A stretch of DNA of 64,000 nt, from positions 124,001-188,000 of the forward strand of contig PLCN01000017.1 in the NCBI GenBank assembly GCA_003134785.1, written 5' to 3'. Origin of the DNA: Spartobacteria bacterium. GTDB taxonomy: Bacteria > Verrucomicrobiota > Verrucomicrobiia > Chthoniobacterales > UBA10450. A model generated the notes under the pieces. The model had not been told where the DNA came from. It did not search any database and was given only the letters and a program-made list of their open reading frames with translations. This document shows, piece after piece, positions 7,989 to 19,562 of this stretch (within the stretch, counting starts at the first letter, position 1; each line of letters begins with the position of its first letter). A program made the position numbers and the translations under genes.

Positions 7989-8690
7989 TTAGACGGTCAA
8001 ATAAGGCGACGGATCGACGTGCAATCCGGGCGACATCGTCGCACTCAACGTCATCCCTTCCACGAAACGGCCTTTCGCCGTCGCCGGCCGCGAGCGCACG
8101 ACAGCTTCGATCACCGCGGTTCCGTTCTCGATTAATTGATTCTCCGCAAAGGAAAATTTTCCGACCGGCACGGCGACATTGCCATTCTTATCGAGCTTGA
8201 ACTCAACGCGGCCCGCTTTCACTTCGCCCACGGCTTTCGCGGTGTCCTCGGTCACCGTGCCCGTCTTCGGATTCGGCATCAAACCACGCGGACCAAGCAC
8301 CTTGCCAAGCTTGCGCACTTCAGCCATTGCGGCCGGCGTCGCGATCGCGACGTCGAAATCTTGAAAACCTTCCTGGCATTTCTGAATCATGTCCTTGAAC
8401 CCGACGTATTCCGCTCCGGCGTCCTTCGCTGCTTTCGCCGCCTGACCCTCCGCAAAAACAAGAACGCGCACTTGTTTTCCACTCCCGTGCGGCAGCGGAC
8501 AGGTTCCGCGCACCATCTGGTCCGATTGCTTCGGGTCGACCCCGAGCCGGAATGAAACCGTCACGGTTTGGTCGAATTTTGTCGGCGGCAACTTCTTCAA
8601 AGTCGAGACCGCCTCGTTCAAGTTGTAAGTCTTTGTGCGATCCACCTGCTCGGCGGCCGCTCGGTAACGTTTGCTGCGATTTTTTTGCAT
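7989..8690 (-). CDS. rplA: 50S ribosomal protein L1
   Basis: L1 stalk protein, about 233 residues. Family signature: [20 protein letters not shown], and [20 protein letters not shown]. The start chosen is the ATG at 8688-8690 ([20 protein letters not shown]), which lines up with the usual L1 N-terminus. An in-frame ATG at 8717 has AGGAG only 3 nt upstream and would add nine residues (MGSLALHII), so it cannot be excluded. Normally rplK lies directly upstream; here rplK is about 9.8 kb away and a divergent accessory gene sits upstream instead. Confidence 0.95.
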
Positions 8691-16000: not shown

Positions 16001-16074
16001 AGACAACGGGCGGTCGGATCCGCCGCGCTTCGATTTTGCTGTTCCGGCTTCTTTTGCTCCACAACACTTGGAGG

Positions 16075-17766
16075 ATGAAGGTGCGTGCTGTTGCGCTGAT
16101 GCTCGTTTTGCTGGGATCGCTCGGCGGCGCGGACTCCCAAACACAATCCGGGAACGCAACAACTGAGCCGCTCGAAAAGCTGGCCGGGAATTTCTGGACT
16201 TGGCGCGCAAAGGAGGCGCCGTTCACGGGGGATGACGTGAACCGTATCGAGCGGCCGGGCGGAGTGCGCAATTGGTCACGCGCTGCGATCGACCGGCACC
16301 GGAAAGAACTCGCCGAACTCGAAGCGCGGTGGAAAAAGATCGATGCGAACGGATGGCCGATTCCGAAGCAGGTCGATTATCGCTTGATCGGGTCCGCGTT
16401 ATCGCGCGTGCACTGGGAGCTCGATATTAATCCGCGCTGGAAACGCGATCCGCTCTTCTACATCGAGCAAACGCTCACGCCGTTGGTCGAGGCGCTGACC
16501 GTGCCCGCGCCGTACGATGAGGCGCGCAGCCGCGAGATTCTCACGCGCATCGAAAATATTCCGGCGATCTTGCAGCAGGGCGAAGCGAATCTCGAAAAAC
16601 CGCCTGCACCGTTTGCGGGTGTCGCGATCCAGGCGCTGGACGGTGTACGTGAGCGCCTGCGCAAAATGGCGGCGGCGCTCCGAAGCTCGACCACGCTCAA
16701 GGAACAGGAGTTGAACGGTGCGACCGAACGCGCGGCGGACGCGCTCGAGCATTTTCGAGCGCGGCTTCGGGAACAATTGCCATCGCTCCCGAAGGAAACG
16801 GCGCTCGGTCGCGACTCTTACGTCTTTTTCCTTAAGAACGTCGCGCTGCTCCCCTACTCGCCGGAGGAGCTTCTCGCCATGGGACGTCAGGAATGGAATC
16901 GGGCGGTCGCATTTGAAAGTTACGAAAAAGAACGCAATCGCGAGGTGCCGCCGCTCAAGTTGGCCGAAAGCACGGACAGTTGGATCAAAGATACGGCGGC
17001 GAAGGAATCGTCGATCCGCGAGTTTTTGGACAAGCGCGGCATTCTGACCGTGCCCGCTTGGGTTCAGCATTACACGCTGCGACCGATGCCGGATTATTTG
17101 CACGCGCTCGAAGGGTTCAGCGAAACGGATGACTTCACGTCGTCATCGCGGCTCAAGGAAAATTGCATCCGTTACACCGATCCGCCGTCACCGAATCTCG
17201 GCTACTTCTGGCGCGCGACCGCGCAAGATCCACGGCCGATCATTGTTCACGAAGGAATTCCCGGCCACTATTTCCAGCTTTGTCTTTCCTGGAAACACGA
17301 GGACCCGATCCGGCGTCATTATTACGATTCAGGCGCAAACGAAGGCATCGGCTTTTACGCCGAGGAGATGATGCTGCAGGCCGGCTTGTTCGATGACAGC
17401 CCGCACACGCGCGAGATCATTTACAATTTCATGCGTCTGCGCGCGCTCCGCGTGGAAGTGGATGTGAGGCTCGCGCTCGGCGAATTCACGCTCGAGCAAG
17501 CCGCGAAATATCTGGAAGAAAAAGTCCCGATGGATCCAAACACCGCGCGCCAGGAAGCGATCGCATTTTCCACCGGCCCTGGGCAAGCCATCACCTATCA
17601 GATCGGCAAACTCCAGATCACAAAATTTCTAACCGAAGCGCGCATGCAGCAGGGCGAGAAATTCAACCTTCGCGCCTTCCACGATTTCGTGTGGAAAAAC
17701 GGCAATGTCCCGATCGCGCTACAGCGCTGGGAATATTTGGGCACCGCGGATGAAGTGCTAAGATAG
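16075..17766 (+). CDS. DUF885 family exported peptidase-like protein
   Basis: 563 residues from the ATG at 16075 (MKVRAVALMLVLLGSLGGAD), which begins with a signal peptide; a TTG at 16036 is in frame but adds a poor leader. The DUF885 metallopeptidase-like signature HEGIPGHYFQL lies at about residues 391-401, followed by NEGIGFYAEEMM near 421-432. A Glu/His arrangement of this kind suggests a zinc-dependent gluzincin-like hydrolase. The C-terminal end (RWEYLGTADEVLR) is family-typical. A second, diverged DUF885 protein is encoded at 32047-34008. Confidence 0.88.
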   Translation: MKVRAVALMLVLLGSLGGADSQTQSGNATTEPLEKLAGNFWTWRAKEAPFTGDDVNRIERPGGVRNWSRAAIDRHRKELAELEARWKKIDANGWPIPKQVDYRLIGSALSRVHWELDINPRWKRDPLFYIEQTLTPLVEALTVPAPYDEARSREILTRIENIPAILQQGEANLEKPPAPFAGVAIQALDGVRERLRKMAAALRSSTTLKEQELNGATERAADALEHFRARLREQLPSLPKETALGRDSYVFFLKNVALLPYSPEELLAMGRQEWNRAVAFESYEKERNREVPPLKLAESTDSWIKDTAAKESSIREFLDKRGILTVPAWVQHYTLRPMPDYLHALEGFSETDDFTSSSRLKENCIRYTDPPSPNLGYFWRATAQDPRPIIVHEGIPGHYFQLCLSWKHEDPIRRHYYDSGANEGIGFYAEEMMLQAGLFDDSPHTREIIYNFMRLRALRVEVDVRLALGEFTLEQAAKYLEEKVPMDPNTARQEAIAFSTGPGQAITYQIGKLQITKFLTEARMQQGEKFNLRAFHDFVWKNGNVPIALQRWEYLGTADEVLR

Positions 17767-17895
17767 CGCCCAGCAAAAACAAAAAGTTCGTTTCGGCTGG
17801 CAGCCGCCTTAACGCAGCGCGACAGCGCGAGGCTGAAAGCCTGCGTTCCCCGTTCCCATTTGTGGGATCCCGCGCAATCCGCGGTCGTTATTTTC

Positions 17896-17919
17896 GGCGG
17901 TCATAGACCGCCGCTACAG
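17896..17919. repeat. CTGTAGC-family hairpin (single)
   Basis: Perfect stem GGCGGTC / GACCGCC, loop ATA, tail GCTACAG. It stands 11 bp from the rplK 3'-end copy. Upstream (17800-17870) there are further weaker inverted repeats. Confidence 0.8.
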
Positions 17920-17930
17920 TTGCGTCGAAT

Positions 17931-17990
17931 TTAATCGACGATTTCGAGGCCCATCTGGCGGGCGGTGCCGGCGATGACGCGGAAGCCGGC
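17931..17990 (-). pseudogene. Second copy of the rplK 3' end (60 bp)
   Basis: Read on the minus strand this gives [19 protein letters not shown] plus stop, the last 19 residues of L11. The intact rplK ends with the same residues except Ile for Val. The two 60-bp stretches differ at five positions and only one changes an amino acid (the stop is TAA here, TGA in rplK). Upstream of this stretch the similarity to rplK stops abruptly. It is separated from intact rplK by one small gene, the geometry left when an element integrates into the 3' end of a gene and restores it. Confidence 0.88.
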
Positions 17991-18012
17991 AGTGGCCATG
18001 ACGAATCGGTCG

Positions 18013-18510
18013 TTACAGCAGGCCGAACTCTCGTCTCGCGACCGGCGTTTGCAGTACCATGAAGGTGGCAACGCCGAGAAGGGTTCCCCATGGGATGAGG
18101 GCACAGTTCAGGCCCGCCATCACGTAAATGAACACGCGATGGGTGCGCTTTTGAACGCAGCGGCCGGCGTAAATCGTGAGCGCACCAAACGTCCAGCCGA
18201 GCAGAATAATGACGCCGATGACGCCCGCAAAAATGCGGAACATGATCACGGGTGGTCCTGGATTCACCGGTCGCGGTGTCGGTGAGGGGGAAACAGAAAG
18301 CGAGTGGAGGATCGTCGCCGATTTCTGCGGCGGATTCCAGGAGGATTCGGGCATGAACGAAAACGCCAGGAACATGAAGAAGTGGATCAGGAAAAACGAA
18401 ACGAAGACGACGCCGACCGCGCCCTTCACGTAAAAGCCGATGGCGAGCAGGCGCAGCCGCTCGCGCACGATGATTTGCTCCTCCGCTTCGGAAAGAGCCG
18501 GGGGCGACAT
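18013..18510 (-). CDS. Small membrane protein between the two rplK 3' ends
   Basis: 165 residues, function not recognised. It has a hydrophobic N-terminal segment (YVKGAVGVVFVSFFLIHFFM), a Pro/Ser-rich loop near residues 70-88 (SVSPSPTPRPVNPGPPVI), and two further hydrophobic segments (IFAGVIGVIILLGWTFGALT; YVMAGLNCALIPWGTLLGVA). The start MSPPALSEAEEQI follows rplK by 15 bp, so it could be co-transcribed with rplK. It is the only gene between rplK and the rplK 3'-end copy, so it is the likely cargo of the presumed insertion. Confidence 0.75.
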   Translation of the reverse strand: MSPPALSEAEEQIIVRERLRLLAIGFYVKGAVGVVFVSFFLIHFFMFLAFSFMPESSWNPPQKSATILHSLSVSPSPTPRPVNPGPPVIMFRIFAGVIGVIILLGWTFGALTIYAGRCVQKRTHRVFIYVMAGLNCALIPWGTLLGVATFMVLQTPVARREFGLL

Positions 18511-18525
18511 AAGCCTGACGAGTCG

Positions 18526-18951
18526 TCAGTCGACGATCTCGAGGCCCATTTGGCGGGCGGTGCCGGCGATGATGCGGAAGCCGGCTTCGTCGTTGCGCGA
18601 ATTCAGGTCTTTGCCTTTCGTCTTCACGATGTCCATGACCTGTTTGCGCGTCACTTTGCCGACCTTCGTTTTGTTCGGCTCTTTCGAACCGGCGGCGATG
18701 TTCGCGGCCTTCTTCAACAGGACCGCCGCGGGCGGACTCTTCGTGATGAAGGTGAACGACTTGTCCTTAAAAACAGTGATGACGACCGGGAGAATGTCGC
18801 CGGCCTGCTTTTGGGTGGCGGCGTTAAATTCCTTGCAGAACGCCATGATGTTGACGCCGCGCGGTCCGAGCGCCGTGCCGACCGGCGGCGCGGGATTCGC
18901 CTGACCAGCGGGGATCTGCAATTTGATGTGAGCTACGATTTCTTTGGCCAT
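18526..18951 (-). CDS. rplK: 50S ribosomal protein L11
   Basis: 141 residues, the normal length. Family motifs: [37 protein letters not shown], and the rRNA-binding C-terminal domain ([20 protein letters not shown], then [18 protein letters not shown]). It follows nusG by 41 bp. It is separated from its usual partner rplA by a small membrane gene, a duplicate of its own 3' end and about 9 kb of accessory DNA. Confidence 0.97.
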
Positions 18952-18992
18952 TGCGGGAAGGTTGAGAGTTGAGAGTTATTAGTTGAGAGAAA

Positions 18993-19562
18993 TTAGCCTC
19001 GTTCGACCTGCCAGTATTCCAACTCGACCGGCGTGGCGCGACCGAAGATGGTGACGGAAACGCGGAGCTTGCCGCGGTCGGGATCGATTTCTTCGACGAT
19101 GCCGTTTTGGTTTTGGAAAGGTCCGTCCGCGACCTTCACGGTCTCGCCGACTTCGAAGCTGACTTTCGGCTTCACCTTCTCTTCACGCTCACGCATTTGC
19201 GCGAGCATGTTGTCGACTTCCGATTTCCGCATCGGGATCGGTTTGTCTTTGGTGCCGGCAAAACCGATCACCCCCGTGGTCTCACGGATGAAATACCAGG
19301 TGCGCCCGACGAGCTGATTGTTCTCATCGAGCAGATGCATGTTCACGATCAGATAACCGGGGAAAAATTTTCGCGTGGTCTCGCTCTTCTTCCCGCGCTT
19401 GATCTCGGAGACGCGTTCGGTCGGGACGAGCACTTCGTAAATCACGTCGCTCATCTCCTCGGTCTTGACGCGCTTCTCGATGTTATCGCGCACTTTGTTT
19501 TCCTGGCCGGAAAGCACGTGCACCACGAACCACTGATCTTTGGGAGCGAGAACTTGAGCCAT
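18993..19562 (-). CDS. nusG: Transcription termination/antitermination protein NusG
   Basis: 189 residues. The NGN domain comes first (WFVVHVLSGQENKVRDNIEK, then PGYLIVNMHL and YFIRETTGVIGF). The C-terminal KOW domain follows (FEVGETVKVADGPFQNQNGI). It links RNA polymerase to Rho or to ribosomal S10. It lies one base after secE in the standard order secE-nusG-rplK. Confidence 0.97.
   Translation of the reverse strand: MAQVLAPKDQWFVVHVLSGQENKVRDNIEKRVKTEEMSDVIYEVLVPTERVSEIKRGKKSETTRKFFPGYLIVNMHLLDENNQLVGRTWYFIRETTGVIGFAGTKDKPIPMRKSEVDNMLAQMREREEKVKPKVSFEVGETVKVADGPFQNQNGIVEEIDPDRGKLRVSVTIFGRATPVELEYWQVERG

Follow-up and report, generated by a model that had tools for sequence, protein, structure and literature searches.

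A second rplK 3' end behind a small membrane-protein gene in a Spartobacteria genome: a probable scar of allele import

CIMEs (cis-mobilizable elements) are flanked by a second copy of the 3' end of their target gene, and derive from elements with an integrase. According to the available part of PMC4701971, ICEs of Streptococcus occupy the 3' ends of the ribosomal protein genes rplL, rpsI and rpmG, where the direct repeats measure 12-54 bp. A different route for foreign DNA is homology-facilitated illegitimate recombination (HFIR), known in S. pneumoniae, A. baylyi and P. stutzeri, in which one side is anchored by homology, the other is joined without it, and foreign DNA of roughly gene size enters. 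In the laboratory HFIR usually deletes resident DNA of about the size of the insert and uses 3-10 bp of microhomology at the joint; partial duplications by single crossover have also been described (excerpts of PMC3240628). The rplK locus analyzed here resembles the streptococcal cases in its ribosomal-protein target and in the second target-gene 3' end that flanks the insert, but differs from ICEs and CIMEs in that it carries just one or a few small genes, has variable ends, and shows no integrase nearby among the matches listed. It would share with HFIR the combination of one homologous and one non-homologous side, but it keeps the old gene end where laboratory HFIR usually deletes resident DNA. 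Our literature search found no description of rplK as an insertion hotspot, and the papers on rplK integration sites and genomic islands were, from their available parts, judged unrelated.

The window, i.e. the whole stretch of 64,000 nucleotides that was analyzed, lies on a 324-kb contig (C3) of the Spartobacteria genome G000. Its minus strand shows the order secE-nusG-rplK, a gene for a 165-aa membrane protein, and a repeat of the last 60 bp of rplK, after which comes a DUF885 gene on the opposite strand (Table 1). When 17931-18525 was searched against its own genome, two hits were recovered, the queried stretch (E 1.3e-314) and the end of rplK (56 bp, 95%, E 5.2e-18); together with an in-register comparison this confirms the sequence-only reading that the end of rplK occurs twice, flanking one small membrane-protein gene. 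The pair is one (D6) of six direct-repeat families detected in the window with a minimum of 30 nt and within 4 kb; by reading, the remaining families are repeats within long genes or intergenic repeats. A search of 17700-19100 against Rfam gave no match. The junction of rplK with rplA, which had been proposed for comparison, does not exist here: rplA maps some 10 kb from rplK, at G000:C3:132028-132600 (window 8028-8600), and the common neighbor of rplK in the family is the DUF885 gene on the opposite strand. By eye, a 13-bp palindrome lies across the rplK stop in the window (18514-18528; TGACGACTCGTCA) and in a genome of the same genus (L071/G006; TAACGACTCGTTA); the two versions show a matched change on both arms, and both genomes are those with the membrane-protein gene. 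An assembly chimera was considered and is unlikely, as separate genomes have scars, the one in the window sits on the 324-kb contig, and its joint lacks a shared stretch.

Table 1. Features of the rplK locus in window coordinates
Feature	Position	Strand	Evidence
rplK (ribosomal protein L11), intact	18526..18951	-	Pfam Ribosomal_L11_N E 1.3e-28 and Ribosomal_L11 E 3.3e-24
Resident (proximal) 60-bp rplK 3' end, read as probable imported allele	18526..18585	-	5 differences from distal copy; 2 from G002 and G003; 6 from G004
Membrane-protein gene, 165 aa, putative cargo	18013..18510	-	no Pfam match above cut-off
22 bp separating membrane-protein gene from old rplK end; putative non-homologous joint	17991..18012	-	sequence
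Old (distal) rplK 3' end, 60 bp, own stop; putative scar	17931..17990	-	1 difference from G004 rplK end, 5 from resident end
DUF885 gene, usual convergent rplK neighbor in the family	16036..17766	+	Pfam DUF885 E 2.1e-56; same cluster at many rplK loci

The two ends, aligned in register, differ at the five sites counted earlier from the sequence, of which four, including TGA versus TAA, are synonymous (P 0.013 for four of five), and the fifth is an I/V exchange. All five fall within the 10 of 60 sites that are variable among seven relatives, and each of the bases is seen there (P 1.3e-4). Decay in non-coding DNA would scatter the differences; their restriction to variable sites thus indicates that the distal copy comes from a functional allele. 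Although non-coding, this copy is a single difference away from the working rplK end of G004, a member of the same genus, whereas the resident coding end is six differences from G004 and two from G002 and G003. By this comparison the 3' fragment fits another lineage better than the resident gene, a point that had been put forward for testing, and the earlier proposal that the ends evolved separately as functional genes is borne out. These substitution patterns show the two ends, at the level of sequence, to be two distinct functional rplK alleles. We consider it fairly probable (roughly 0.6) that 17931-17990 represents a recombination scar, left behind when the rplK end of a relative was imported together with a linked gene.

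Comparison with relatives, as the sequence-only reading had advised, recovered empty sites: in three genomes of the same genus (G001, G002 and G004) there is no gene between rplK and the opposite-strand DUF885 gene. The pattern named as contrary evidence, namely a gradual local duplication with the small gene in every lineage, was not found for rplK. Elsewhere in the genus, G006 has a membrane-protein gene 80% identical to that of the window behind rplK, followed by a 44-bp rplK end, and in G007 about 1 kb of other ORFs of unknown nature precedes a 42-bp rplK end. Similar arrangements occur in other genera with different contents. G029 has a HicB-like/HicA pair and a 65-bp rplK end (HicA Pfam E 2.1e-6, with the HicB-like matches below cut-off). 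In G032 a stacked insert, comprising a response-regulator gene, a 33-bp rplK end and a relative of the membrane-protein gene, extends from the rplK stop to about +1170. G094 shows no gene but about 95 bp of repeat-like DNA and then a decayed rplK end. In G026, from the same genus as G032, a DUF423-like ORF lies directly behind rplK. Some loci have other genes behind rplK but no second end; FRG-domain, helix-turn-helix, trypsin-like and methyltransferase ORFs are among these genes (L116/G091, L121/G096, L115/G090 and L081/G066).

A second rplK 3' end is present at 6 of the 81 loci read (6/66 in the family and 0/15 in other families), or at 6/71 when at least 1.2 kb of downstream sequence is required (6/56 and 0/15, respectively); 17 of the 83 family genomes lie outside this locus set. 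None was detected at the 26 loci of family f7, nor at 80 named loci, which come partly from the same genomes, at E 1e-3; the best 80 named matches listed for rplK are mostly Verrucomicrobia and Chthoniobacterales metagenome-assembled genomes, including one Candidatus Udaeobacter. The genomes are draft assemblies of unequal completeness, in which short second ends can go undetected. For comparison, a downstream copy of the gene's own 3' end was found for rplK at 6/71 loci versus 2/487 other ORFs at the same loci (Fisher P 8e-5), where the control rate is a lower bound, because the control ORFs were chosen mechanically and include antisense ORFs. One of the two control matches is a large tandem repeat in G099; in the DUF885 gene of this genome (L125) a tandem repeat of several hundred bases occupies the 3' part and is identical over the 66 bases tested.

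A mirror image of these arrangements is seen at the other end of the gene in G018, where the intact gene is preceded by a 117-bp second rplK 5' end, the two being separated by a different leader. Over 114 bp the two 5' ends show 20 differences, 19 of them silent (P about 1e-10); if the last codon is included, the counts become 23 and 19. G018 is the only genome with such a 5' match among 153 loci, the other match (L218, isolate AV134) being the same contig. Scars resembling those of rplK are also found at the 3' end of a different gene, alr, in three of the eight genomes of the genus. In G000 a new alr end is followed by about 100 bp of repeat-like DNA and then by a 32-bp older end, whereas five of seven relatives have a single gene end that matches both G000 ends (33-34 bp overlap). 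By eye, G004 has a similar insert and older end, and in G005 the older end follows after about 5 bases.

A further second 3' end in G000, that of dprA, is located behind adh and before topA (G000:C10:148733-149833, topA side L338; L351-L356), and adh occupies this place in all eight genomes of the genus. The names alr, topA, adh and helicase (below) are our readings of the sequence, and the dprA gene overlaps a Pfam DprA match. We had considered the dprA second end as a recent import, given that the G000 copy scores 106 against the G002 gene and 94 against its own, but dropped this because seven of the eight genomes have it (in G004 and G006 the match covers just 28 bp; G005 has no match). As it is common to so many genomes we regard it as old and do not count it among recent imports; the G000 and G007 copies are nevertheless 88% alike over 90 bp. 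By these comparisons it is apparently an old inherited scar, better kept than a neutral fossil should be, and end copies of this kind may be under constraint or conversion. That such a copy is old yet well kept speaks against imports leaving simple fossils that are always short-lived, and has lowered our confidence accordingly.

In a scan of 461 kb of G000, 8 of 344 ORFs had 3'-end matches. Seven of these, excluded as paralogs, share one surface-protein-like C-terminal motif, and alr is the remaining one. The absence of rplK from this ORF set is probably because a longer overlapping ORF displaced it. In three long surface-protein-like genes (G000:C2:14527-31300; L178, L179) the 3' end recurs 34-125 bp downstream, behind a palindromic repeat starting TGTAGAGG. 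Across all stretches scanned (861 kb of G000 and 400 kb of G007) matches were found at 14/992 3' ends and 12/983 5' ends; most are, by reading, paralogs or short intergenic repeats, with alr, dprA and a helicase gene of G007 set apart. About 0.8 kb upstream of the last, and separated from it by another ORF, lies a copy of its 5' end (120 bp, 99% identical), which could be a plain duplication.

The helicase copy speaks for the idea that the rplK end was duplicated in place along with the insertion, and that both copies then diverged. In four of the six genomes the second rplK end scores nearer to the rplK end of another genome than to its own, with a margin of a single base in G006. In G007, where the two ends are identical over 42 bp, and in G032 it is nearest to its own, so that local duplication fits these two. 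As a general account we regard it as very improbable. For G000 it is disfavored by the coding pattern retained in the non-coding copy and by the closeness of that copy, rather than the coding one, to the G004 gene, and for G018 by the predominance of silent differences.

The sequence-only reading had favored integration of an element into the rplK 3' end, with the gene restored by the element's own copy. In the form considered here small integrase-less elements, like cis-mobilizable elements, would enter by means of a recombinase encoded elsewhere and supply the new gene end. The repeated use of one gene end for insertions that differ in cargo, the empty sites in G001, G002 and G004, the streptococcal precedents mentioned above, and the presence of a tyrosine-integrase (Phage_integrase) match in 82 of the 83 family genomes are all in accordance with such elements. 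However, no integrase was found within 30 kb of rplK among the matches listed for the 83 family genomes; two of those matches share a contig with rplK (G094:C340 and G016:C16), and by eye each is at a distance of over 30 kb from it. Several matches span about 600 bases (e.g. G002:C10:193867-194469 and G094:C340:14644-15246), and these resemble integron integrases. The second ends begin 33 to 65 bp from the stop in different genomes rather than at a fixed att core, although later deletions could shift these starts. The 5' scar of G018 and the alr scars also fall outside what integration at the rplK 3' end would produce. Searches of plasmid and phage collections with the membrane protein gave no match, and six stretches of a viral collection that fit its peptide pattern yielded no confirmed case; the rplK end was found neither in viral contigs (one pattern) nor in phages (search within 17920-18600). 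Integration by such elements is hence not supported as the origin of the second rplK end, and we hold it to be distinctly improbable. Two other mobile agents were examined and set aside: by eye, a GTTRRRY-like start as in integron cassettes occurs behind rplK in G006 only, and an ORF behind rplK in G096, considered as a homing nuclease, gave helix-turn-helix matches only.

The membrane nature of the cargo gene product is a reading of hydrophobic stretches; its best Pfam match has E 0.41, which is not above cut-off, and neither NCBIfam nor PADLOC gives any at E 0.01. Relatives, mostly weak matches, were recovered from 41 of the 213 genomes of the order. When 16 chosen rows were placed in a tree, the five copies linked to rplK (G000, G006, G059, G032 and G098) formed a clade together with two located elsewhere (G079 and G067), and the latter two joined G000 and G006. 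The tree thus gives no apparent single clean origin at rplK, and the clustering suggests that the linkage to rplK may be of old standing in the family, followed by loss or movement.

Import of a relative's rplK end could proceed as follows. DNA of a relative, with the 3' part of rplK and the membrane-protein gene behind it, would enter the cell, and homologous recombination inside rplK would give a working gene that ends with the donor 3' end and is followed by the donor neighbor. The other side, lacking homology, would be joined near the resident rplK end, as in HFIR, and the last 60 bp of the resident gene would stay behind as the old end. Its support comes from the two functional alleles, the empty sites, the recurrence with different cargo, and the mirror-image 5' scar. 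Anchoring in rplK would also explain why the cargo has the orientation of rplK and is diverse, why no integrase lies nearby, why the starts of the second ends vary, and why both 5' and 3' scars exist. As a conserved gene rplK probably makes a good anchor, and the usual presence of a convergent gene beyond it probably renders its 3' side tolerant. Common recombination within populations of soil bacteria, and an association with ComEC loci, are reported in the available portion of PMC7305173. Among Pfam domains of DNA uptake and of end joining, the genus has ComEC in 7/8 genomes (none in G004), DprA in 8/8 and Ku in 8/8. Against import stand the second ends of G007 and G032, the membrane-protein gene tree with no single clean origin at rplK, and the finding of no donor haplotype or clear breakpoint in rplK or alr by windowed identity against relatives. 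The deletion of resident DNA typical of HFIR is also not seen in the window, where the resident gene end and the DUF885 neighbor remain.

A close variant of this import is a single-crossover insertion, in which a short circularized DNA that holds the cargo and part of rplK recombines by one homologous crossover and duplicates the gene end. It yields the same anatomy, and partial lacZ duplications outnumbered true HFIR in conjugation of E. coli (PMC3240628, in excerpt). Yet the homology would be only 33-65 bp, and the variant predicts a donor-like left part of the distal end, on which just one informative site bears; we consider it unlikely.

A duplicated gene end alone is no proof of an integrating element. 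Where a second gene end separates the new allele from the old one, one-sided recombination events become countable in uncultured bacteria from sequence alone, and the scars point to an integrase-free movement of small accessory genes. Beyond this, it is conceivable, if doubtful, that core-gene ends serve as recurrent docking sites in this soil family. Homology in genes such as rplK would anchor one side and end joining would form the other joint, so that small accessory genes (e.g. HicA-type pairs) might spread on core-gene alleles without any mobile element. Each old end would then be a homologous handle for the next transfer, maybe kept by selection or conversion.
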